IMG/VR virus record: IMGVR_UViG_3300036884_000356
Location: 1 to 42,235 of that record
DNA from: a virus
Reading direction: 5' to 3' (one strand)
Length of the DNA: 42,235 bases
Shown here: in pieces, positions 6,737 to 40,884 of the stretch
How positions within the stretch are numbered: position 1 is the first letter of the stretch
How the letters are laid out: the number at the start of each line of letters is the position of its first letter
Notes under the pieces: model-generated
What the model was told of the DNA's origin: nothing
What the model saw: the letters and a program-made list of their open reading frames with translations, nothing else
The model's database searches: none
Position numbers and translations under genes: made by a program

Positions 6737-8683
6737 TTACACTTCTTCGGACTGCGGTTCGGTAGTTCCCTTCGCCATATTCTCCTTCACGACGCACTCC
6801 GGGTTCGAGCAGACCCCGGCAATGATCTCGCCCTTGACTTTCTTCGGCTTCACGACCCAGGAACACGGGACGCCATCCACAAGACAGGCCCGCGCTTCGG
6901 TACAGCCGCAGTGACGGCACATCTTGCCAATGGTGCGCGCCTTGATCCGCTCCACTTCTCCGTCGATCTTCTTCTGGTCAGCGGCCAGCCGCCCAGCCTG
7001 ATCCTTCAGCTTGGCCTCCGTAGCCTTGAGCATCTTCCCCTTCTTGCCGGCGCCCGGCAGCTCCTTCACGCTGGCCCGCTCCCCGGCCAGCCGCTTGTCG
7101 CGCTTCTCATAGCTCGCGCGCTTCTTCTCATTCCATTCTTTCTCAACGGGAGCCGAGACCTTCTTGATTGGGACCAGATAGGCCTTCGCCAGCTCTTCAA
7201 TCTTCTCTCCATCCGAGAACTTCCCGGCCACGTCTTGGGCCACGGTTAAGTCGCTTAGGATCCTGAGAAGCGTTGGGCGGTCCGGTGCACTATGAATCAG
7301 TTTATCCAGATGCCCCGAGCGATAGTCATCAGACGCCTTAGCCCCCTTGGGCAGCGGCCAAAAATCCTCGAAGTACTTTACTCCGTCCTGCTGCGGCCGC
7401 AGCGCGTAGGCGCATTCCTTGACGATGAATCGAAACGCTTCGAGCGAGATACTTGCGAAAGCATCCTTGGTCTTAGCCTGCCCCGCGCGCACGGCCGCAT
7501 GAACGACCATCCGGACCGCCTTATCGGTCCTGCGTTGCCAAAGCTGCTCGACCTGCCTCTTGCGCTCTTCATTCATAATCCCGGGAGTCCGATTTACCAC
7601 CCGCCCACCTGCAGAGCGCCGGGAGCCATGTAGCTTGCAGCCTTCCTCCGCACAGACGTACCGGCTCTTCCCCAATCCCGTACCGGCAACGATGAGCGCC
7701 TCTTTCGTGTGCTCGCAGGAATCCTTTAGACTCTCGGTCCAGCCGCCCTTCTCATATTCCTGGCGCGCCAAGATCACTTTCTTCTTGCGGAGCTGATCCC
7801 TCTCTGAATAGCCAAGCCCCTCCCTGGAGGCAATCTCAAGGGCACCCGGCAGCTCCTTCTTGCGAAGCTCGAGGAACGCCCGGCACTTATTGCCGTAGCA
7901 CTCGGCGTCCGTGCAGGTGTCCGTCTCCTTGATGTCCGGAAAGAGCATCGGGCTGGCCCCGGATCGCTTTGGACAGGTCGTGCAGGATCCCGCAGCCGGA
8001 ACCAAATCCGCCGAATCGATCGGAAAGGACGCCTTCGAGAGAAGCGTCATCACGTGGCGTTCAAGAAAGCGTCCAATGGCTGCGGCGCCGAAGTTTCCAT
8101 CTTCATTCATGCCATACCGATTGAACTCCTTCCAGGCCGCTAACTGCGCTCCCGGCGTCAAGCGTGCGAGCATGAGCGCCGAGCCCAGGAGCAGCGTGCC
8201 CTTGTAGGCTTCCGCCGTCCATTTCAGGTTCAGGTTATTCAGCGCCATCCGGAGATGCACGTACACTTCCGGCTTGCCGACCATCTCCGCGACCGTCTTC
8301 GGAGCAACCCCGCCGCTCAGAAGTTTCTTGAAGCCCGCGGCTTCATCCATGAAATGAATGTCCGCCCGTTGCAGATTTTCAACCATCGCGAGCGTGAGCG
8401 CCTCTTCCGCCGACATCTCACGTACCACGGCGGGAATGGTTTCCTTCCCCGCCATCTTGCTCGCGTCAGCGCGGCGCGTCCCGAAGACGATCTCGTACTT
8501 CCCAGCCCCGTCCGGCCGGACCAGAATCGCCTGCTGAACGCCATGTACCGCAATGTCCGCAGCCAGTTCTTTCAGTTGTTCGGGGTCGCGACTATACTTT
8601 CCCCGTGGGTTGTAGGGTGATGGCACCAGCCACGCCAGAGGAACTTGCTCGACTGTCATTGTCCGTGCGTCTGTTATTTCCAT
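6737..8683 (-). CDS. ParB-like nuclease/CTPase-domain protein with cysteine clusters
   Basis: A 648-aa protein. The N-terminal ParB domain (about 10-110) includes VPLAWLVPSPYNPRG, then GTRR (68-71) and ENLQRADIH (102-110), the positions of the phosphate-binding motifs of ParB CTPases. A KorB-like helical DNA-binding region follows. Further on are CTTCPKRSG, CTDAECYGNKC, a second Cys set around CAEEGCKLHG, and a C-terminal CRHCGC region. Plasmid and phage ParB proteins of this long type share these clusters. I see no ParA partner or parS repeat. It could act in DNA partition, transcription control or as a nuclease. Start: ATG 8683 or TTG 8692, both served by a GGGGGA run. Confidence 0.8.
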   Translation of the reverse strand: MEITDARTMTVEQVPLAWLVPSPYNPRGKYSRDPEQLKELAADIAVHGVQQAILVRPDGAGKYEIVFGTRRADASKMAGKETIPAVVREMSAEEALTLAMVENLQRADIHFMDEAAGFKKLLSGGVAPKTVAEMVGKPEVYVHLRMALNNLNLKWTAEAYKGTLLLGSALMLARLTPGAQLAAWKEFNRYGMNEDGNFGAAAIGRFLERHVMTLLSKASFPIDSADLVPAAGSCTTCPKRSGASPMLFPDIKETDTCTDAECYGNKCRAFLELRKKELPGALEIASREGLGYSERDQLRKKKVILARQEYEKGGWTESLKDSCEHTKEALIVAGTGLGKSRYVCAEEGCKLHGSRRSAGGRVVNRTPGIMNEERKRQVEQLWQRRTDKAVRMVVHAAVRAGQAKTKDAFASISLEAFRFIVKECAYALRPQQDGVKYFEDFWPLPKGAKASDDYRSGHLDKLIHSAPDRPTLLRILSDLTVAQDVAGKFSDGEKIEELAKAYLVPIKKVSAPVEKEWNEKKRASYEKRDKRLAGERASVKELPGAGKKGKMLKATEAKLKDQAGRLAADQKKIDGEVERIKARTIGKMCRHCGCTEARACLVDGVPCSWVVKPKKVKGEIIAGVCSNPECVVKENMAKGTTEPQSEEV

Positions 8684-9116
8684 TGGATTCAATCCCCCTT
8701 TTAATTTGAAGTTTTCTAGACGCTTTCCCGCCCTGATTATCTTCCTCATCATGGCAGCGCCCGCAGAGCGGCCGCAGGTTTTCCCGCGTGTCTCCCGGGC
8801 AAAACGGCGAGCTTTGCTTGATGATGTGATCGAAGAGCCGCGTTGAAAACTCTGGGAGCGATCGCCCGCATTTCGCGCATTGCTTCCCTGTGTCCATCCA
8901 GATTTCATAGCAAAGCCCGACATAATGATGCCGTGACAGATTAACCCGTCCTCCTTTCGTCACATGGGATGGCTTGGGCTTCCCCTGCCGCGCCATCGGA
9001 TGGCGTGGCCGTGGCGCTTCTCCCTGGACGCGCCAGGAACAGCCATGCACGATGCAGATCAGCCAAGCTCCCAACTTCCGAAGTGGCCGCCGATGCTCGG
9101 GACAGCGCGGTTTCAC
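8592..9116 (-). CDS. HNH endonuclease
   Basis: A 174-aa protein starting at GTG 9116, with AGGAGG five bases upstream and a 4-nt overlap (GTGA) with the preceding SWIM gene. The HNH core is CAKCGRSLP, then RLFDHIIKQS, then CPGDTRENLRPLCGRC, giving two zinc-binding Cys pairs, the D-H pair and N-L-R-P-L. The N-terminus has an extra CPEH...CIVHGC knuckle. The last 30 codons overlap the ParB-like gene by about 92 nt in another frame, longer than usual here, so the C-terminal tail is probably non-essential or recently extended. Confidence 0.75.
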   Translation of the reverse strand: MKPRCPEHRRPLRKLGAWLICIVHGCSWRVQGEAPRPRHPMARQGKPKPSHVTKGGRVNLSRHHYVGLCYEIWMDTGKQCAKCGRSLPEFSTRLFDHIIKQSSPFCPGDTRENLRPLCGRCHDEEDNQGGKASRKLQIKRGIESNGNNRRTDNDSRASSSGVAGAITLQPTGKV

Positions 9117-14235: not shown

Positions 14236-14640
14236 TCAATACAAGATTTTCTTTCCTTCCACCAATTCACGCCAAGTTTTGATATGTTCTTTGAGTTTTT
14301 TCAGGTCGGACGGAACGACTCGCCTGACTTCTCCGTGATCAATCGAGTAATAGCTGTTGACGGTCATCGTTCGTGCATCACCGTCAACGATGAGAACGGA
14401 ATTATTGTTGTTCTCGGTGAAGCGCTGGAAAGCGATTCGCTGTCCGGTTGGAAGAAGTTTCTCAGGACCCTTCCATTCCTGAATACCGAAAGATCTGTCA
14501 ATTTCAACGAAGGCATCGATGTCTGTATATCCGATTCCCCGAGAGAAGCACTCATCAAAAACCCCCAATCGAATCCGCTTTATCAGATTGAAGCAATTTG
14601 TGCCGTTCTTGCAGTCCCACTCCATTCTACGTCCTGACAT
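14236..14640 (-). CDS. Putative PD-(D/E)XK-fold nuclease
   Basis: A 134-aa protein starting at ATG 14640 with GGAGG five bases upstream, overlapping the methylase gene stop. The segment GYTDIDAFVEIDRSFGIQEW followed by K is the sort of D-x-D...E-x-K arrangement found in small phage nucleases of the PD-(D/E)XK fold ('TDIDx..E....f..iEwK'). A basic C-terminal helix follows. Next to an adenine methylase it could form a nuclease/methylase pair, but small resolvase-like phage nucleases are equally possible. Confidence 0.5.
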   Translation of the reverse strand: MSGRRMEWDCKNGTNCFNLIKRIRLGVFDECFSRGIGYTDIDAFVEIDRSFGIQEWKGPEKLLPTGQRIAFQRFTENNNNSVLIVDGDARTMTVNSYYSIDHGEVRRVVPSDLKKLKEHIKTWRELVEGKKILY

Positions 14641-15628
14641 CTTTGCCTCCATAGGGAATCACAATGAATCCCACCGTCCGGAACTGCTCGGCAAAGGCTT
14701 CCAAGTCCTTGCCGAAATATAAGAAAGTTTGCCCTTGAATCGGCTGCATGCGTCGCGATCCGGTCGAATCGATGAAATTTAACCTTCCCCTTGTAAAGCA
14801 GATCGCCGTACAGGCGGAAGCTGCCTCATGAAACCAGACCGTATCCGTATAATTGTTTGTCAACAGGATCGCCGCCGTTATTCGTCCCGCTCGATACTCT
14901 CCGATGAGCTTTGAAATGAACTGCGCCATCAAGGGCTGACTGTAGGGTGGATTCAACCAAACGTTACCATGCCACTCTCGCTTCAGCCCGTCATCTTTCC
15001 TCGTGAAGAACTTCGTGGCCCTCACCGTCTCCTGAGCCGCAGCACTCGATGCCGGGTCCAGATCGATTCCATTAAGAACGGACCGCGCCAGCTCGATGTG
15101 CTCCGCAGGCGTGTACCATTCATCTTCACCCGCGCCAAAAGTACCGCGCGGTTTCTTACCGGCGTTCAGGATATCTTTGCCAACAAGGCCATCAGATTTC
15201 TCTTCAAACTCACGCCACTTTGCAATCTTCTGCTCGAATTCCTCTTTCGACAGCGCGGCAAGTTTATGAGCGTAAGCGCTCTTTTTCTTGTCCACGCCCA
15301 GCTCTTCGAGGGTGGGTGTGTCTATTGGCGGTTCATTTCCGGAACCGCCAATAACTCCCGGCCCCACAAGCTGGCTTCTTGTTCCCTTCGCCTTCATCGT
15401 CTCGTGAAGCTCAGCCCACTTCTTTTCGGCGCGCCCACGAACATCAAGCGCGTCGATTTCCAACTTTCGATCTCCCATCAGCCGGACATACACTGCGATG
15501 GCTTCGGCCTTACTAGAAAAGACTTTCGCCTCATCCATCGTCTTTGCCTGTTCAATCTCCCGGCAGGCCGCGTCATAATGGAGTTCTGCCTTCGGCCCAT
15601 TCGCGAGCGCTGTCATCTTGCCCTTCAT
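14627..15628 (-). CDS. dam: Phage N6-adenine DNA methyltransferase (Dam family) fused to a helical N-terminal domain
   Basis: A 333-aa protein; ATG 15628 or 15615. Residues 14-135 match a domain usually found as a separate phage protein (A..EI..A....EA.....KAEAIAVYVRL, LEIDALDVRGRAEKKW, then PTLEELGVDKKKSAYAHKLA). The second half is a Dam-type phage methylase: DEWYTP at 169-174, GIDLDPASS at 187-195 (SAM pocket), and VWLNPPYSQP with the catalytic NPPY at 226-229. It would methylate adenine N6, probably against host restriction. The fusion of these two parts is the odd feature. Confidence 0.85.
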   Translation of the reverse strand: MKGKMTALANGPKAELHYDAACREIEQAKTMDEAKVFSSKAEAIAVYVRLMGDRKLEIDALDVRGRAEKKWAELHETMKAKGTRSQLVGPGVIGGSGNEPPIDTPTLEELGVDKKKSAYAHKLAALSKEEFEQKIAKWREFEEKSDGLVGKDILNAGKKPRGTFGAGEDEWYTPAEHIELARSVLNGIDLDPASSAAAQETVRATKFFTRKDDGLKREWHGNVWLNPPYSQPLMAQFISKLIGEYRAGRITAAILLTNNYTDTVWFHEAASACTAICFTRGRLNFIDSTGSRRMQPIQGQTFLYFGKDLEAFAEQFRTVGFIVIPYGGKDVRT

Positions 15629-17699: not shown

Positions 17700-19133
17700 C
17701 TAGCTATCGTTCCCGGCCGCCGCGGCCTTCTGGTCATAATCAAAGCCATCCGCGGCTTTGTTCTCAAACTTGACGTAGGGGCGCAGGAATATCAACGTAG
17801 CGTCGCCCACGGGCCCATTGCGCTGCTTCGCAATGTTGGCCCCAATCTCCACCCCTTCGGCCATACCCAGCTCTTCATCCTCAGGCTCTCCCCGGAAAGC
17901 TTTGGGTGGGAAACGGTAAAGAAAGATCACGGTATGCGCGTCCTGCTCAATCGCTCCCGAATCGCGCAGATCGGAGAGCATGGGCTTGGGTCCGCGGCGC
18001 TGCTCCGGAGGCCGGCTGAGTTGGGAGAGCGCCACGACGGGACGCTTCAACTCCCGCGCCATGTGGAGAAGGCCATGAGAGACGTTGGAAACTTCCTGCG
18101 TCCGGTTCTCCCCCGTGCCTTTGATCAGTTGCAGATAATCCGCGATGATCAGATCCACGTGATGCTCGGCGACCAGCCGGCGCGCCTTCGCCCGCATCTC
18201 CATGATCGAGATCCCGGGCGTGTCATCGATATAAATCCGGGCCTCGGCCAGCCGCCCCAGGGCCGCCGTCATGCGCCCCCAATCATCTCTTGAAGCGAAG
18301 CCCGTCCGCAGCTTGTGGCTGTCGACCCGCGCCTCTGAGCAAAGCATGCGAAGGATCAGCTCCGATCGCGCCATCTCCAGGGAGAAAATCCCGACTGCCT
18401 TCTGCTGCTTCATCGTAACGTGCGCGGTGACATTCAGCGCCCAGGCCGTCTTGCCGACCGAAGGCCGGGCTGCGAGCACGATGAACTCCTGATTGCGCAG
18501 GCAGCCGAGCATCCCATCCAGGTCCATGAAGCCCGTTTCGACTCCATCGCCCGTCCCGCCCCGCTCAAAGAGCCGATCAATCGTCCCGAAGCTTTGTTGG
18601 ATAGCTTGGCGTATCGTAACAAAGCCCGTACTGACCCGCTCCTCAGCCAGCTCAAAGAATTGCTGCTGCCCCATTTCGATGAGCGTCTTCGCGTCATCCG
18701 ATCCTTCCAGGGCTCGGGTCATCAGGCCACTTGAAACATGGATGGCGCGCCGCAGCGTGGACTTCTCTTTCACGATCCGGCTGTACTCCCCTACCGCCGC
18801 CGTCGTCCCGATCGGCACGCCGTCGACCAAGCTGGCAATGTATCCGGCGCCCCCGGCCTTCTCCAGGCATCCATCCCGTGAGAGCACTTCTCCCAGGGTG
18901 ATGAAGTCAATCGGCTGGCCCAACTCCCCGAGGTCCACCATGCGCTGAAAGAGGATGCGATGGCCATCCCGGTAAAAGTCTTCGGGCGCCACGCTTAACT
19001 CCAAAGCGATATCGAGCGCTCCTGGGTCCAATATAACGGACCCCAGGAGCGCCCTTTCTGCTTCAGCATTATTCGGCAACGTCCGCGGTTCGTCCGGCGC
19101 CGAAACTTGTTTATTGGGTTTTGGGCTTGCCAT
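17700..19133 (-). CDS. dnaB: Replicative DNA helicase, DnaB family
   Basis: A 477-aa protein. N-terminal DnaB domain: LPNNAEAERALLGSVILDP (19-37) and the EDFYRDGHRILF helix. RecA-type core: Walker A ARPSVGKTA (222-230), catalytic glutamate in SLEMAR (251-256), Walker B DLIIADYLQL (327-336), then ALSQLSR and SDLRDSGAIEQDA. Length and order match full hexameric helicases that unwind the lagging-strand template and bind primase. The start at ATG 19133 lacks a strong ribosome binding site and overlaps the loader gene by 23 nt, so translation is probably coupled. Confidence 0.95.
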   Translation of the reverse strand: MASPKPNKQVSAPDEPRTLPNNAEAERALLGSVILDPGALDIALELSVAPEDFYRDGHRILFQRMVDLGELGQPIDFITLGEVLSRDGCLEKAGGAGYIASLVDGVPIGTTAAVGEYSRIVKEKSTLRRAIHVSSGLMTRALEGSDDAKTLIEMGQQQFFELAEERVSTGFVTIRQAIQQSFGTIDRLFERGGTGDGVETGFMDLDGMLGCLRNQEFIVLAARPSVGKTAWALNVTAHVTMKQQKAVGIFSLEMARSELILRMLCSEARVDSHKLRTGFASRDDWGRMTAALGRLAEARIYIDDTPGISIMEMRAKARRLVAEHHVDLIIADYLQLIKGTGENRTQEVSNVSHGLLHMARELKRPVVALSQLSRPPEQRRGPKPMLSDLRDSGAIEQDAHTVIFLYRFPPKAFRGEPEDEELGMAEGVEIGANIAKQRNGPVGDATLIFLRPYVKFENKAADGFDYDQKAAAAGNDS

Positions 19134-19443
19134 CGCTGGCCGGGCCGTCCATCCCGGCGCGTCGTGCTTCGGCTGCGGCGTTCTCCCTTTCATACTGCGC
19201 GAAGAGCTTCTTCGCGGTCGGCGTCCCTGAAAGCATCGCGGGTTTCTGGATGCGGCTTTCATCTTCAACAATGGCCCGGATGTCTGCCACGGTCGGGAAG
19301 AACCGGCTGTGCTGCAGATGCTCTTGACAGGCCATCTCGAAACCATCCTCCGTCAGGTCTCCGAGCGCTCGCATCCAAATCTCAGGAAGCATCGGACCCA
19401 CCGGGCGTTGATAGTTCTCCGAAAATATCGCCTGCCACTTCAC
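19111..19443 (-). CDS. Putative helicase loader, G39P-like
   Basis: About 110 aa from GTG 19443; the start is uncertain because an ATG at 19518 would overlap the initiator by 137 nt. The core LPEIWMRALGDLTEDGFEMA followed by RFFPTVADIRAIVE matches the N-terminal domain of the SPP1 helicase loader/inhibitor G39P ('W...L.....v..A...h......fPtiadIr'). The C-terminal tail is polar and disordered, as in G39P, where it contacts the helicase. Its place between initiator and DnaB agrees. It would bring DnaB to the initiator-bound origin. Confidence 0.65.
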   Translation of the reverse strand: MKWQAIFSENYQRPVGPMLPEIWMRALGDLTEDGFEMACQEHLQHSRFFPTVADIRAIVEDESRIQKPAMLSGTPTAKKLFAQYERENAAAEARRAGMDGPASDGKPKTQ

Positions 19444-20482
19444 CACGACGGGCAAGCGCAGCCTTAAAGACCTTGCGATTGGACTCAGTGATCTGCTCAG
19501 CTTTGTTTTTGAATCCATTCCCTCCCCCCGCTATCGGCTCCATGAACTGATCATAGTTGGCCGCGAAATACCGCAGCGATCCCTTTCGCTTCTGGTGGAA
19601 CGCGTCCCCACTTTCCATGAAATTCAGCCAGCGCTCCCCGAACTCTTCCGGTGTGATCCCGGGCCGGACCCGGACCAGCAAGGCGAGTTGGCAATAATCG
19701 GCAGCTCGCCAAGTGGGCTTGGTCCCGTACTTTTTCACAAAACTGTCCATGGCGAGATCCGAGAGCTTTCGCTGCCGCGAAGTCTCCAGGTTTCGCAGAG
19801 ACTTCGCGCCTGAAGTACTCTCTGAAGTACTCACTGAAGTACTATGCTGAACGTCCTTCAGCAAGTTCTTGTCGTCACGTTCAGCAAGTTCGGAAGGAGG
19901 TTCAGCAGGTTCGGTGAATAAACTTGCTGAACCTCCTTCAGCAGCTTGCTTTTTTAGCTGCCGTTCAAGAGATTGGTGGTGAGCTCGACATAACCAGTGG
20001 ACTTCCAGGGGTTTGGAGTAATCCGGGTGATGCGATTCCGAGTTGATGTCTCCGCAGACCTCACAAGGTTTCCGGGTGAGGGTGCCCCGCCCAATCGCGC
20101 CGGCCACGATCTTGTGGGCCCGGATGCGCTCGGAACTCTCATAGGTGGGCGCGTCATCGGTATATCGGCTGGGATCATTCGGATCCTGTCCAGGAAAGTT
20201 GACCACGTACTCATAGGCAGAGTATCGCTGCCCTGCAAAGCCATGAATCCGGCGTCCTATCCAGCCTTCAACGGTGGATAGCTGAAGATGCGTAATGACG
20301 GCACGCTCCGACAAGCCCGTCTCCCGGGACAGTCGCTTTGTGGAGGGAAAGCATCCCTCCCCCAGCTCATTCATATGACATCCCAGGGTCAGGAGCACGT
20401 GCCGGGTGGTCGGGGATAGGTCAGAATTTAAGATTGCGGCGCGCCAAGAAAAATATAAAGGCTTTTCATTATGGAGCTTCAT
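19382..20482 (-). CDS. Winged-helix replication initiator with inserted HNH-like zinc domain
   Basis: A 366-aa protein, start MKLHNEKPLYFSWRAAIL. Residues 20-95 form a helix-turn-helix/winged-helix domain (SPTTRHVLLTLGCHMNE, FPSTKRLSRETGLSERAVITH), as in phage O-like and G38P-like initiators. Residues 121-172 are an HNH-like zinc unit: RAHKIVAGAIGRGTL, CEVCG, ESHHPDYSKPLEVHWLC. Residues 175-230 are a low-complexity linker whose DNA carries iteron-like repeats. Residues 240-315 form a helical domain that probably contacts the loader. Loader and dnaB follow, so the order matches SPP1 genes 38-39-40 and lambda O-P. Confidence 0.8.
   Translation of the reverse strand: MKLHNEKPLYFSWRAAILNSDLSPTTRHVLLTLGCHMNELGEGCFPSTKRLSRETGLSERAVITHLQLSTVEGWIGRRIHGFAGQRYSAYEYVVNFPGQDPNDPSRYTDDAPTYESSERIRAHKIVAGAIGRGTLTRKPCEVCGDINSESHHPDYSKPLEVHWLCRAHHQSLERQLKKQAAEGGSASLFTEPAEPPSELAERDDKNLLKDVQHSTSVSTSESTSGAKSLRNLETSRQRKLSDLAMDSFVKKYGTKPTWRAADYCQLALLVRVRPGITPEEFGERWLNFMESGDAFHQKRKGSLRYFAANYDQFMEPIAGGGNGFKNKAEQITESNRKVFKAALARRGEVAGDIFGELSTPGGSDAS
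19810..19947. repeat. Iteron-like repeat cluster, candidate replication origin
   Basis: Three exact copies of CTGAAGTACT start at 19810, 19822 and 19834 (12-bp period). Next come TTCAGCA(A/G)GTTC at 19857, 19880 and 19901, an inverted copy at 19921-19931 and a partial one at 19937. GAAGGAGGTTCAGCA (19893-19907) and its exact complement (19925-19939) make a 15-bp inverted repeat. All lie in the linker-coding part of the initiator gene, as the lambda origin lies in gene O and an SPP1 origin in gene 38. Confidence 0.6.
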
Positions 20483-25933: not shown

Positions 25934-26836
25934 TCAATCATCACTTCTCAGCTTGCGAATGCCCGCCGTCATGGTATTCAGCGTCTCGGATGCCTCCTTG
26001 ATGATCAGCCCGGTACGCTCCTTCAGCGTCTCACTCTCCCGCAACTGCTCAGGCGTGATCCCCTGCATGAGGTCTTTGAGTTGCCCCGAAACAATGGCCA
26101 GCTCCGTATCATCCGTGACGTTGCGAAATTCAAAGGTATTGAGGAATTCCCGCAGGCGGTTAACGGAGCTATCCGTCAAGCGCTTGGTCTTCCCATCCGC
26201 TCCCGGCACCAGAGAATCCTTTAGCCGCTCCACCAGGTCGGCCATCCCGACCCTCAGCATGGTGCGCCACTCCTCATAGCTGTCCTGCATCTTCTGCTGG
26301 ATCTTGTCGCGCTCCTTCTCAAATAAATCGGCGCTCAGCTCCTTCAAGGAGGCGGGCGTGGAGAGCGTCACGTAATTCCAGGTCATGCGAAAGCGCGCCC
26401 GGACCTGTTCCTGAGTCGGATAATCCGCCCGTTCAAACAGCACGCCCAGAGGCTCCCGGGCTGTTTCCAGAAGCTCCGGATATTTCTCCGTGAAGCTTTC
26501 TGCCATCAGCTCCCGGCGCTCGCTAAACTCCTGAAGCTTGGCTTCCACCTGCCCGACGAGGCCGATGGGCAAAACGTGCAGGCCCTTCTCATAGGGCAGG
26601 CACTTCGAATCGATGTAAGAGAGAACGTCCGCATCCAACCGGCTGATGGACTTCAGCTCCTCGCTGTCCAGCAGCCGCTTCGTAACGTTGATCCGCCGCT
26701 TGTCGGCGTCCACCTCGACGCGTGAAGAAGCCACGTGCCGAGTATTTCCGAATGCCTCAAAGTGAATGCTGAGAAACACGGCTTGCTCCGTGATGCTTCG
26801 CATCCCGCGAGGCCGTTCAACCGTCATCGTGGGCAT
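25934..26836 (-). CDS. DUF3150-like protein
   Basis: A 300-aa protein with GGGGGAAGG upstream of ATG 26836. An N-terminal beta-type segment (TEQAVFLSIHFEAFGNTRHV) leads into helices with EELKSISRLDADVLSYIDSK, then a 'G.hvLP..lv..ve..L.ef' stretch and VRARFRMTWNYV. This order resembles DUF3150 proteins, which accompany MoxR-like or CobS-like AAA ATPases in phages and plasmids. The C-terminal half is long and helical. As part of a run headed by an AAA ATPase it may be that enzyme's partner. The assignment rests on pattern and context. Confidence 0.5.
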   Translation of the reverse strand: MPTMTVERPRGMRSITEQAVFLSIHFEAFGNTRHVASSRVEVDADKRRINVTKRLLDSEELKSISRLDADVLSYIDSKCLPYEKGLHVLPIGLVGQVEAKLQEFSERRELMAESFTEKYPELLETAREPLGVLFERADYPTQEQVRARFRMTWNYVTLSTPASLKELSADLFEKERDKIQQKMQDSYEEWRTMLRVGMADLVERLKDSLVPGADGKTKRLTDSSVNRLREFLNTFEFRNVTDDTELAIVSGQLKDLMQGITPEQLRESETLKERTGLIIKEASETLNTMTAGIRKLRSDD

Positions 26837-26859: not shown

Positions 26860-27102
26860 TTAGTGGCCCGCCTTAAGCACGTCCTGCCCGTGCGTGTGAG
26901 CCGGATCGTGGCTGTGATGCTTAGCCCGGCTCATGGCCGCGGGGTCCGTCCGTGCAACCCGGGTCGTCTCGCCGCCTGCCAGGATCGACATCGCCTTGAT
27001 GAATCTCTCAGCGGAATCGTGGTTCGCCGGTGAAACCGGATCGGTCGTGGTCTTGATGGTGCCGTCCGGAAGAATCTCAATGGTCATCGTGTCCGCGTTC
27101 AT
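26860..27102 (-). CDS. DUF2997-like small protein
   Basis: An 80-aa protein starting at ATG 27102, with GGAGGG four bases upstream and a 4-nt overlap with the DUF1257-like gene. TIEILPDGTIKTTTD followed by a helix (SAERFIKAMSILAGG) fits the short 'I.i.pdG.i.te...G..C.....le..lG' layout of DUF2997. The usual cysteine is missing. The C-terminus is histidine-rich (AKHHSHDPAHTHG), which could bind a metal. A hairpin, GCGGGC...GCCCGC, overlaps the stop codon. Confidence 0.5.
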   Translation of the reverse strand: MNADTMTIEILPDGTIKTTTDPVSPANHDSAERFIKAMSILAGGETTRVARTDPAAMSRAKHHSHDPAHTHGQDVLKAGH

Positions 27103-27431
27103 GAAGCCCTCCGTTTCACGGTCGCCACCAGATTGCCAGCGGCGTTGGTTTTCCAGTCGAATTTCCAACCGAAGCGCTTTCCCTGGGACTCGACCACTTG
27201 CTTCGAGTAGGCGATCTTGATTTGGCCTTCGGTTCCCTCGTCTGCGTTCCGGATGGTCATCTGGCAGGTTTCGGTATTGAAGTATCCCGAGACCGTACCC
27301 CTTGAGAATCGAACCACGCTCCCACTTTGCTGCGCGACATAGCCGGCCGCGCGCAATGACTCCACCAGGATCGTGGGATTCGTTGTGCTGGCCCAGGCCA
27401 TCTCCGCGGTTATCACTGTATCGCAAGGCAT
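27099..27431 (-). CDS. DUF1257/Ycf35-like protein
   Basis: A 110-aa protein with AAGGGAGGG before ATG 27431. The order of elements is a start like MPCDTVITAEM, a helix (PTILVESLRAAGY), a two-strand middle (SGSVVRFSRGTVSGYF), then IKIAYSKQVVESQGKRFGW and a final strand ending ATVKRR. It matches Ycf35/DUF1257 ('...Yay..v...a...Gf....e...dG.i.l...r'). In cyanobacteria and phages such genes often neighbour DUF2997 and Ycf46-like ATPases, as here. Biochemical function is not known. Confidence 0.55.
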   Translation of the reverse strand: MPCDTVITAEMAWASTTNPTILVESLRAAGYVAQQSGSVVRFSRGTVSGYFNTETCQMTIRNADEGTEGQIKIAYSKQVVESQGKRFGWKFDWKTNAAGNLVATVKRRAS

Positions 27432-27541: not shown

Positions 27542-27721
27542 CTAAACATCCGGCTCAATCGGTTCGTCGACGTCCGCTTGGGTGTAACCGGTCAAGATTT
27601 CCGGCCGGTACCGTGACAGTTCTTTCTTCTCGCAATCCTCGCAGGTGTAACAGAGGAAAATTCCCTGCGCGTCGAACTGCGCCTCGCGCGGTTTCCCGCT
27701 ACCACATGGACAGTCTCTCAT
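27542..27721 (-). CDS. Small zinc-ribbon protein
   Basis: A 59-aa protein. Its ATG overlaps the stop of the YkgJ-like gene by 4 nt. MRDCPCGSGKPREAQFD then FLCYTCEDCEKKELSRYRPE gives a Cys4 ribbon (C-x-C ... C-x2-C-x2-C). The acidic end is DVDEPIEPDV. 'CxCGSGK...G...C..C...k...yRPEI' proteins are frequent in phage genomes. The function is unknown; its position suggests it belongs to the ATPase cassette. Confidence 0.75.
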   Translation of the reverse strand: MRDCPCGSGKPREAQFDAQGIFLCYTCEDCEKKELSRYRPEILTGYTQADVDEPIEPDV

Positions 27722-28239
27722 CGCTCAACTCCTTTCTCCATAAGCCCTCGCGCAACTTCTGGTCTGGGCGCGCGCTTGCCCAACTTCCAAAGGTGTTCCC
27801 AGATCATGCCGTACAGCGATGAGCGGTCAAGCTGCGCCCGATAGACATCCTCAAGCGCCGAGTGATTCGCCCACATCTTCATGGCCGTGTACTGATCACA
27901 GCCGAAGAAAGCGCATCCGAACGGCGCCACGGGATAAATCGTGCAGCGCCGCTCAGCCGTGAAGTGAATGCAGACTCCGCTCTCCTGCCGAGTAGGTACC
28001 AGCGTGTGGATCCGGAACAGTTCAAACCCCTTGGACACCAGCGCCCCCGGCGAAGCCAGGAGGTTTGATTCCGCCCAGGTGAGCGGATCATGGGTTGGGT
28101 CCGGATCATTCAGTTCCCATTTCGGAATGATCCGGTCCAGGTCAGCCGGGATCAAATATCCCGGCATGATCTCACAGAAGCGCGAGCAGGCTGCGCAAGC
28201 GCAGGACGTTCGCTCGATACCAAACTCAGTCCGCTTCAT
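27718..28239 (-). CDS. YkgJ-like cysteine-cluster protein
   Basis: A 173-aa protein with GGGAAGG just before ATG 28239 and overlap with the AAA gene stop. SCACAACSRFCEIMPGYL gives cysteines at 13, 15, 18 and 22; later come GVCIHFTAERRCTIYPVAP and FGCAFFGCD. This is the YkgJ-type layout (C..C..C...pG......C.fl....C.iY..RP..C), proposed to bind zinc or an iron-sulfur cluster. The usual R-P pair is V-A-P here. It sits between an AAA ATPase and a zinc ribbon. Confidence 0.65.
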   Translation of the reverse strand: MKRTEFGIERTSCACAACSRFCEIMPGYLIPADLDRIIPKWELNDPDPTHDPLTWAESNLLASPGALVSKGFELFRIHTLVPTRQESGVCIHFTAERRCTIYPVAPFGCAFFGCDQYTAMKMWANHSALEDVYRAQLDRSSLYGMIWEHLWKLGKRAPRPEVARGLMEKGVER

Positions 28240-29771
28240 ACCTTCCCGCCTTTCCTGTCGAAGGCGAGCGGGCCATCATCAAGCTGTAGGCGGCGCTTCC
28301 CGCCCCCGCTTGATTCAGCCTGCTCCTCCCAGCGATAGATCCCCGGCTCTGAAGCCGAAACATACTTCCCCGTCGCAAGCTGACGGAGCGAACGAACCTT
28401 GTCCGCGGCCGCCCGGCAGACCGGAACGATGAACGCCGCAGCTTGTCGTAATGGAATTTGAAGCTGGTCGGCGAGCTTCGAGCACTCCTTGATTTCCCGG
28501 CCCGTCCAACCGTCATCGTCTGGAACCGGATCCCCTGCTGACAGTGAGTACTTCTTGCCGTAGAATTTCCAGCAGGCTTCTCGCTCATCCGCTCCCATCA
28601 AGTCAAAGAAGAACGTCCCGAGCGTGAACCGGCTCAGGATTTCCGGAGGCATCTGCCCGATCGCATTGCAGGTGCCGATGACCAGCGTGTTCCCCTGGGA
28701 GATGGCATCCACGGTTTTGAGCGCGGTGCGAAGGCGCTCTTCCGTCGAGCCGATGATGCCGGACTGCATCCCGGCCAGATCGAACATGATGGTCGGGATT
28801 CCCGCCACGCTGCCGGCCCACTTGGCGAGCAAGGTTTTGCCCCCGCCCGGAACTCCAATGCAGAGCATGCCGTCCGACTCCCGCTCCGTGGTCCATGAGA
28901 GCCACGTTCCGGTCATCCCCGTCTTCACGCCGGAGAGGTCTGTCCCGGTGCCGGCGAACGCCTTCTCGATCTCATCGATGAAAAGGATGCAACGGTACTT
29001 CTTCCGTCCCGCCAGAACTTGCTTGAGAAAGGCGCGGACGTTCTCCAGGCCGACCGGCTCCGGAGTCGAGCCCCGCGAAACGGTCATCCCGGCCTGCTGC
29101 TCGATCTGCTGGCGCTTGCGTTCCCACAAGCCCTCCACGTCGATGCCTTTTTTTGACGCCGACATGGCCATCGCCTGCTCTGCCGGGAAGGCGGCCAATC
29201 CCGCAACCGCGTCGATCGCGGCCGCTTCTTGCTCCGCCGTCAACGCCGGACAGCCCGCGGCCTGAACGATGTTCCTCAGAATGACGAGCAGCTCTTCCGG
29301 AGTCGGCAACGGCTCATCGATCACCAGAACATCCTCGGACAGCTCCGGAGGAAGAACCGACCCCGCCGTGGTCGTCATGACCAACATCTGACCTTTCATC
29401 TTGAAAGACTCCCGCAGGTTCCAGATGCCTTGCTTCACGCCCTCGTTCGTCCAAAACATGTGCGCGTTGACCATGACGATGATCACGTCCTCCGTGCTGA
29501 TCTTCCCGAGGAGCATCAGAAAATCAGTGGGGCGCGTGGAGACTTCCAGCGGATCCCCGCCATCGAGAAGCCGCGCGGCAACTTCACTCCCGGGCTTGTT
29601 CAGCCCTTGCAGGCCGCGCATCAAGTCCCAAATCAGAAATGGAGCTTGATTGATGTTGCCGTTTAGAGGTTCCGTGATTTCATTGATGGCCGACCAAGGG
29701 TCAGCCGTCCGAACCGCGACGAGCGGAGTCGCCGCTTTGCGAGCCGCCCGGAATTGCTGTTTGAATTCCAT
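28236..29771 (-). CDS. AAA-family ATPase, Ycf46-like, with Walker B before Walker A
   Basis: A 511-aa protein, ATG 29771 after AAGGGGG. The N-terminal half follows Ycf46: APFLIWDLMRGL (43-54), EDVIIVMVNAHMFW (94-107) and LPPELSEDVLVIDEPLPTPE (140-159). The ATPase core is in an unusual order: a Walker B-like ILFIDEIEKAF (262-272), then a Walker A GVPGGGKT (306-313), a sensor-1-like LVIGTCN (363-369), an SRF arginine-finger candidate (380-382) and a GWTGREIKE sensor-2-like helix (421-429). In ordinary AAA proteins Walker A comes first, so this looks like a circular permutation inside the core. I recall phage relatives with the same order. Substrate unknown; partners are probably the downstream cassette proteins. 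Confidence 0.8.
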   Translation of the reverse strand: MEFKQQFRAARKAATPLVAVRTADPWSAINEITEPLNGNINQAPFLIWDLMRGLQGLNKPGSEVAARLLDGGDPLEVSTRPTDFLMLLGKISTEDVIIVMVNAHMFWTNEGVKQGIWNLRESFKMKGQMLVMTTTAGSVLPPELSEDVLVIDEPLPTPEELLVILRNIVQAAGCPALTAEQEAAAIDAVAGLAAFPAEQAMAMSASKKGIDVEGLWERKRQQIEQQAGMTVSRGSTPEPVGLENVRAFLKQVLAGRKKYRCILFIDEIEKAFAGTGTDLSGVKTGMTGTWLSWTTERESDGMLCIGVPGGGKTLLAKWAGSVAGIPTIMFDLAGMQSGIIGSTEERLRTALKTVDAISQGNTLVIGTCNAIGQMPPEILSRFTLGTFFFDLMGADEREACWKFYGKKYSLSAGDPVPDDDGWTGREIKECSKLADQLQIPLRQAAAFIVPVCRAAADKVRSLRQLATGKYVSASEPGIYRWEEQAESSGGGKRRLQLDDGPLAFDRKGGKV

Positions 29772-39856: not shown

Positions 39857-40774
39857 CTATGCCTCCAACTGAACAGAGAACTGCCAACTCGCAGAGCCCT
39901 GCAAAATATCAATGGTGATCACGTCGCCTTGCGCAATGTTCACCGGGCTGGTTATAAGAGCAAACGTTGACACGGTGCCTGAAGCAGTCCCTGCGCTTAT
40001 CTGTTTCACCGCACTGAATACGCTCACCGCATTCCGATTGATGACGAAGCGCAAGGCGATGGCAGGGTCAGAGGATTTCACGACAACAGCGCACTGGTTA
40101 ACCGTACCTGCGCGGGCTGCCACAAGCATCGGCCCAGCATCTATGGCGACCGTCCCGTTGCCGATGCAAAAACCGATCACGATGCCAGCGGCGGTGCCAG
40201 TGGCGCCGGTCGCACCCGTGGCGCCGGTTGCCCCCGTCGCCCCCGTCGCGCCCGTGCCGCCCGTAGCACCCACAGCTCCCGTAGCACCGTCAGATCCGGC
40301 AGAGCCCGTGGCGCCCGCAGCTCCCGTGGCACCCGTGGCGCCGGTTGCTCCCGTCGAGCCCCCGCCCCCGCCGGCCCGCACCGTGAAGAAGTTCGCTCCG
40401 TCTGAGAAGATCAAGGCGCTCGAGGCGGCCGCCAGGACCAGCGTCGCCGCGCCGTCAATGGTTCCGGCTGCCGGCGTGATGGTGACGGTGCCGGTCCCGA
40501 GGTTCTCAACCCCGCAGAGGAATTCCGCTCCCAGGGTCGCGGCAGCATCCAGGGTGACTGCCACGGTTGGCCCGTGCGAGAACGTGACCAGGTTCCCGCG
40601 CGAGGCCATGTCAATCGTGTAGGTTGCGCCCGCCTGCGGATTGACCGAGCCCCAGTTCGGGGACTCCGCCGAGACATTCCGCGGATTGGAAGCGTCGGCT
40701 TGCCAGCTGACGTTCCGGTTCCCCGTCGTCGCGGTTGGAGTCGAATCGTTCAGGTTGATGAGGGTTCCAGCCAT
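39857..40774 (-). CDS. Collagen-like tail fibre protein
   Basis: A 305-aa protein starting at ATG 40774 with GAGAGG upstream. The N-terminal beta domain (1-134) includes [18 protein letters not shown], the usual repeat of phage fibre knobs. Residues 141-190 are Gly-x-y repeats ([19 protein letters not shown] and similar), which form a collagen-like triple helix. The C-terminal domain (191-305) is beta-rich and may be the tip. The DNA of the repeats is highly similar within itself and could recombine to change length. Confidence 0.8.
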
Positions 40775-40884
40775 CAAAAACCTCTCTGGATTTCCAGACA
40801 GGGATGCCCTAAAATAAAGAGGCTGCCCAGATGTTTGAGGCATCGGAGCAGCCATCGACACATTGAGCGTTGGAGGCGCCCAAC

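Follow-up and report, generated by a model that had tools for sequence, protein, structure and literature searches.

Gene content of the locus

The window, a linear viral fragment of 42,235 nucleotides from IMG/VR, encodes on its minus strand at 28236..29771 a protein of 511 amino acids (P0001), and a short way upstream of its ATG at 29771 there is a purine-rich stretch that resembles a Shine-Dalgarno sequence. The start of a CxxCxxCC-like gene (27718..28239, minus strand) overlaps the end of this gene; its product matches PF03692 (zinc/iron-chelating) at 17.7 bits, short of the curated cut-off of 23, and genes of the same kind are present at the related loci L007-L009, L033, L041, and L092. 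Next on the minus strand is a divergent DUF1257 (Ycf35)-like gene (27099..27431), which has no Pfam match but scores 19.3 bits (E 9e-6 among 145 nearby ORFs) and whose product clusters with the DUF1257-like neighbours of other loci. The small protein encoded at 26860..27102 (minus strand) is tentatively DUF2997-like, with a weak score of only 8.6 bits and a place in the DUF2997 cluster by single-linkage BLAST. A DUF3150 protein (25934..26836, minus strand) reaches 21.6 bits with the Pfam model, below its cut-off of 24.9, and 352 bits with the family HMM. For the same families at other loci, Pfam scores exceeded the cut-off for DUF1257 (39.4 bits) and DUF3150 (32.1 bits) at L095 and for DUF2997 (56.8 bits) at L011, and the remainder fell below it. 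Both in the window and at L095 the cassette lies within a region of DNA-metabolism genes.

Elsewhere the window has the content of a tailed-phage fragment, with genes for a ParB-like protein (6737-8923), a DNA methyltransferase (14627-15628), a DnaB-like helicase (17700-19346), a replication-initiation-like protein (19382-20482), and a tail-fibre-like protein (39857-40861).

Order of the ATPase motifs in P0001

The core motifs of P0001 run along the chain from Walker B (ILFIDEIEKAF, residues 262-272; 28956..28988, minus strand) to Walker A (GVPGGGKT, residues 306-313; 28833..28856, minus strand) and then directly to the sensor 1 strand (LVIGTCN, residues 363-369; 28665..28685, minus strand), which is recognised by its motif and conservation; SRF (residues 380-382) and GWTGREIKE (residues 421-429) follow. 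An earlier note on this DNA, made from the letters alone, had described this arrangement, and its ORF, strand, and residue numbers were all correct. Searches of the core against Pfam and NCBIfam returned AAA-type families only. The Pfam AAA model (PF00004) matched P0001 with 48.5 bits split over two stretches, as expected of a canonical-order model applied to blocks in another order. On the basis of this match, hhalign comparisons, and a predicted model, we annotate P0001 as a permuted, Ycf46-like AAA+ ATPase.

The same lines of evidence divide the protein, in minus-strand coordinates, into successive parts. Residues 1-228 (29088..29771) form an N-terminal domain that hhalign finds homologous to the canonical Ycf46-like N-domain, and residues 240-258 (28998..29054) contain helix α0 and the linker ahead of the core, in canonical position according to conservation, model, and hhalign. 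The moved block follows, comprising β3 (Walker B) and α3 (residues 260-298; 28878..28994; p97 584-627 profile match, hhalign, and model), and after it the block β1-α1-β2-α2 with the P-loop (residues 299-359; 28695..28877; p97 528-583 profile match and model). The sensor 1 strand β4, the arginine-finger region, β5, and the lid with GWTGxEI (residues 360-480; 28332..28694; p97 630-723 profile match) are again in canonical position.

Exchange of two adjacent core blocks

When searched against solved structures, the permuted-family profile tiled the D2 domain of p97 (6chs) in three pieces, with profile positions 298-353 aligned to p97 residues 528-583, 255-295 to 584-627, and 357-445 to 630-723. 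By hhalign, the permuted proteins matched the canonical Ycf46-like C-domain (100% probability, E 7e-56) except that no Walker B block was present at its usual place; a second alignment recovered the moved Walker B block alone (98.5% probability, E 1.6e-15). Because of the p97 tiling and these HMM-HMM alignments, we conclude at the level of sequence profiles that two neighbouring blocks have changed places, the canonical (β1-α1-β2-α2)(β3-α3) having become (β3-α3)(β1-α1-β2-α2) with α0 and β4 fixed. The earlier note had proposed that a Ycf46-like ATPase had its Walker B segment moved ahead of Walker A, and the HMM-HMM comparison agrees; its statement that the N-terminal half follows Ycf46 is borne out by an N-domain match of 99.8% (E 2e-29). 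It had also called the rearrangement an apparent circular permutation, a description that applies to the segment from β1 to α3, held between α0 and β4, but not to the whole domain.

These data also bear on whether IDEIEKAF is a decoy and a diverged but normal Walker B follows Walker A. Most permuted proteins have 7-8 residues between where the Walker A block ends and sensor 1, compared with about 46-48 in the canonical ones, and so short a stretch cannot accommodate another Walker B. The predicted model was examined for a genuine Walker B strand beyond residue 313, but the only strands in that part of the chain are β2, β4, and β5, and no extra one lies between α2 and sensor 1. The moved block itself matches both the canonical Walker B block and p97 584-627. 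Gap length, model, and block alignments all contradict the decoy, no support for it was found, and we regard it as scarcely credible.

The N-domains gave an additional result. The canonical N-domain resembles the sensor-1 and lid region of the canonical AAA domain (hhalign 91.8%, E 7e-7), whereas the permuted N-domain reached only 55% against the same domain. By this resemblance the N-domain is itself probably a degenerate, P-loop-less AAA module, and the whole protein may accordingly consist of two AAA modules in tandem, of which one is degenerate and the other active.

Predicted fold and residue couplings

An AlphaFold2 model built with 69 aligned family members (pLDDT 90.8, pTM 0.83) contains every element of the AAA core in the permuted order: β3 (261-265), α3 (282-297), β1 (300-306), α1 (312-323), β2 (327-330), α2 (340-358), β4 (362-368), and β5 (386-389). 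Foldseek searches against the PDB and viral models returned p97, Rix7, NVL, and phage Ycf46, and the best structural matches among viral proteins bear the name ycf46. The whole-chain TM-scores of 0.3-0.65 are no test of the position of the permuted block, since Foldseek aligns in chain order and therefore cannot superpose it.

Residue couplings were computed by mean-field DCA from 115 rows, equivalent to only about 75-85 effective sequences, with six settings and ten strand pairs. The pairs β3-β4 and β1-β5 were the strongest two of the ten in all six settings and β2-β3 ranked third in five of the six, and each of these pairs is adjacent in the normal sheet, whose order is 5-1-4-3-2; the pair β1-β4, also a normal neighbour pair, was only middling and lay outside the top pairs in most settings. 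The end of α2 (358/359) was coupled to the start of β3 (260/261), a contact that is a covalent junction in canonical proteins, at a background fraction of 0.001-0.009. At the other two of the three old junctions the same 115 rows gave no coupling signal. These couplings lend modest support to the normal neighbours within the sheet, most of all to the pairing of β3 with β4.

We consider it very probable that the Ycf46-like core is permuted and retains the AAA fold. According to the model, the three-dimensional arrangement of the five-stranded sheet (5-1-4-3-2) and of the ATP site is most likely the usual one, with the ATP site formed within one chain. The earlier note had made its reading depend on IDEIEKAF being beside the P-loop, and the confident model and the couplings agree, indirectly, with that position. 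An alternative is that the Walker B strand is swapped between subunits and completes the site of its neighbour in the ring. The linker from α0 to β3 is short, α0 lies near the subunit interface in AAA rings, and the model is of a monomer only, all of which would suit such a swap. The monomer model nevertheless places all elements confidently, and the β3-β4 and α2-end/β3-start couplings are consistent with an intrachain site, although this kind of analysis does not distinguish contacts within a chain from those between chains. We judge the swap to be highly unlikely.

Distribution of the permuted order

Separate HMMs for the Walker A block and the Walker B block identified the permuted order in 120 distinct ORFs, some of them near-copies and some cut off at contig ends, and the canonical order in 96 relatives. 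The sources of the permuted ORFs are IMG/VR contigs (some 80 or more), genomes of Bryobacterales, and Tunturi_3, a phage in culture. Possible intermediates, with a Walker B block on both sides, were absent from all 216 ORFs (120 permuted and 96 canonical). A scan with the 132-residue permuted core yielded about 75 viral contigs together with 15 loci in assemblies of Bryobacterales and other Acidobacteriota, and three additional scans yielded further viral contigs. Some acidobacterial genomes hold two to four permuted copies, which suggests that these genes may belong to prophages or other mobile elements. The earlier note had asked for the same order in relatives, and Tunturi_3 is among those that have it; the host of this phage is Tunturiibacter psychrotolerans (PMC11924767), and its full-length relative of P0001, gp103, is 38-40% identical.

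Since the window is a metagenomic viral fragment, the order of the blocks could in principle have arisen in assembly or binning. That order recurs in an isolate, in several assemblies of Bryobacterales, and in independent contigs numbering some 80 or more, which leaves a negligible chance for such an artefact, and a chance event or assembly chimera is likewise contradicted by four IMG/VR contigs, about 90% identical, that share the permuted order with the Tunturi_3 isolate.

Intein-like insertions favour conserved active-site motifs of important genes. The permuted AAA gene at L067:7227-9185 carries an in-frame, intein-like insertion between the Cys and Asn of sensor 1 (...IATC|LTGDTL...VVHN|CNN...).

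Conservation of catalytic residues and the P-loop

In 84 distinct permuted rows, Asp266 and Glu267 of Walker B and Lys312 of Walker A were invariant (100%), Asn369 of sensor 1 and Arg381 were kept in 99%, and the lid motif GWT-G-[AR]-E-I was retained, with columns 422-427 at 85-95%. The features of the AAA clade are therefore present, namely the Walker A Lys, the hhhhDE Walker B, the sensor 1 Asn, the arginine-finger region, the GxxGAE lid, and the Ycf46-type N-domain, but the clade order Walker A - Walker B - sensor 1 is violated, with Walker B first in 120 of 120 members.

The P-loop is less uniform. Its last glycine (in the region of residues 310-311) is Ala or Ser in 67 of the 120 permuted proteins, as in the type GPPGAAKS, and in none of the 96 canonical ones; P0001 retains GGGKT, and Tunturi_3 has GVPGVSKS. 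Judged by sequence, the Ala/Ser P-loop could mean altered or lost ATP turnover, and the relaxed GPPGAAKS form may mark an altered nucleotide cycle in many members. These substitutions are the case for a protein that is permuted, with its fold kept, but acts as a pseudo-ATPase or nucleotide-binding switch with weak ATP binding or very slow hydrolysis. Retention of the Lys, the Asp-Glu pair, the sensor 1 Asn, and the RRF arginine at 99-100% over deep divergence argues instead for retained catalysis, and the P-loop of P0001 is an ordinary GVPGGGKT. We consider the pseudo-ATPase unlikely. A reading that we regard as likely is that P0001 is a functioning ring motor of the AAA+ kind, in which a single internal block exchange has reordered the catalytic core.

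Genes beside the permuted ATPase

DUF3150 is the most constant partner of the permuted gene, being near 64 of the 67 representative permuted loci. A model of the DUF3150 protein (pLDDT 93.4) is a long helical protein with a small β part, and a fold search with it matched no solved structure below E 0.001; the fold therefore gives no hint of a role, and what this partner does is a guess. On some plasmids the DUF3150 gene is flanked by an AAA ATPase gene on one side and a VWA gene on the other, so DUF3150 may be a general AAA partner. The Tunturi_3 protein gp96 (L001:11696-12655) is annotated as an HNH endonuclease, yet it scores 328 bits with the DUF3150 family HMM and shows no HNH domain in Pfam. 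On the Manganitrophus plasmid CP114562 (L011:5094-6016), the DUF3150 sequence occupies two reading frames, as a frameshift would produce.

A radical-SAM gene that we label NrdG-like from its sequence was found near 46 of 77 canonical bacterial relatives and at 15 permuted loci (for example L095:10181-10801, L101:11142-11792, and L108:9958-10680). This association points to an unstudied, putative AAA-DUF1257-DUF2997-radical-SAM cassette in many bacteria. The cyanobacterial genes for DUF2997 and ycf35 (DUF1257) have a ferredoxin gene as neighbour (PMC4284462). Several of the neighbouring genes have an Fe-S character, which hints, speculatively, at a metalloprotein target.

A small conserved neighbour on the same strand, with the motif R[AV]SH[VI]EP ... 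[DN][ML]SP, is encoded at L057:10489-10899 and at 23 other loci.

Origin of the exchange

In a tree built from separately aligned blocks, all 67 permuted representatives fell on one side of a branch with SH-aLRT support of 100; the tree is unrooted and some of its rows are long. A second tree with more canonical viral members agreed on the permuted clade. Planctomycetes, viral contigs, and the Manganitrophus plasmid supply the canonical sequences nearest the permuted branch, and in most of these cases DUF3150 is encoded next to the ATPase. As read from these trees, the permuted proteins are one clade whose nearest canonical homologues sit in the same cassette of AAA, DUF1257, DUF2997, and DUF3150, and the permuted state is taken as derived because the canonical order is universal elsewhere. 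The exchange would have happened once, within a cassette that already encoded these four proteins, and the permuted gene would then have spread in phages and some acidobacterial genomes. The simplest route would be an internal duplication of the segment from β1 to α3 followed by loss of the outer copies.

Relation to known systems

The Ycf46-like AAA ATPases of cyanobacteria, plastids, many bacteria, and phages (for example Pseudomonas phage SM1 gp26) share with the permuted proteins the N-domain, the core blocks, the lid, and the DUF1257/DUF2997 neighbours; they differ in their canonical order, in usually lacking a DUF3150 neighbour, and in a P-loop that always ends in GK. Closest are the DUF3150-linked canonical Ycf46-like ATPases of Manganitrophus (CP114562), Rhodopirellula solitaria, and the viral contigs L094, L293, L294, and L360, which have the same cassette but in which Walker A precedes Walker B. 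Within the AAA clade, p97/Cdc48 and Rix7/NVL have the RRF arginines and the GxxGAE lid in common with the permuted family, and the three core blocks correspond one-to-one with those of p97 D2, but these eukaryotic or archaeal segregases are of canonical order and have another N-domain.

In permuted TRAFAC GTPases the motifs follow the order G4-G5-G1-G2-G3. We considered whether P0001 might be such a protein, with an NKxD G4 ahead of G1, and rejected this because what precedes its P-loop is the Walker B block of an AAA protein. The circularly permuted TRAFAC GTPases (RbgA/YlqF and RsgA/YloQ; PMC6912228) are a natural case of motif reordering in a P-loop NTPase with function kept, but they are GTPases in which the whole G domain is permuted and no Walker B stands ahead of Walker A.

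The MoxR-type AAA and VWA pairs (NorQ/NorD; PMC13036017) are activation systems that resemble the plasmid arrangement of DUF3150 between AAA and VWA genes; they differ from the permuted loci, near which no VWA or MoxR homologues were found. The anti-phage defence ATPase IetA was rejected as an identification, there being no canonical-order match over the whole ATPase. A search for a defence role with PADLOC gave no whole-protein match, and only the P-loop block matched IetA weakly (E about 2e-5).

We know of no AAA+ ATPase with a changed order of core strands, and a description of a permuted AAA+ core was absent from the open-licence literature searched, which is weak evidence of absence. The permuted family appears to be the first natural example of such a rearrangement known in the AAA ATPase class.

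Proposed mechanism and implications

The usual core runs β1 (Walker A)-α1-β2-α2-β3 (Walker B)-α3-β4 (sensor 1), and that of the permuted proteins runs β3-α3-β1-α1-β2-α2-β4. In the predicted structure β3 would remain beside β4, and Lys312, Asp266, Glu267, Asn369, and Arg381 would still meet at the nucleotide. Helix α2, which comes after the pore-loop 1 region, would lead straight into the sensor 1 strand and not into the Walker B strand. The protein would probably form an ATP-driven ring and, by way of DUF3150 and the small partners, might remodel or activate a target. We offer this adaptor-coupled remodeller, for which hydrolysis, ring assembly, and remodelling are all inferred, as a possibility with a little less than even prospects.

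Few protein machines have been studied as much as the AAA+ ATPases. Canonical-order profile searches see only fragments of the permuted proteins, as in the two pieces of the Pfam AAA match to P0001. Because the gene is present in the cultured phage Tunturi_3, the family is open to direct study. A permuted core that keeps its catalytic residues is a natural test of signalling among Walker B, sensor 1, and the pore loops, and if these proteins are indeed working ring motors, the AAA+ connectivity that has been assumed to be fixed would not be needed for function.
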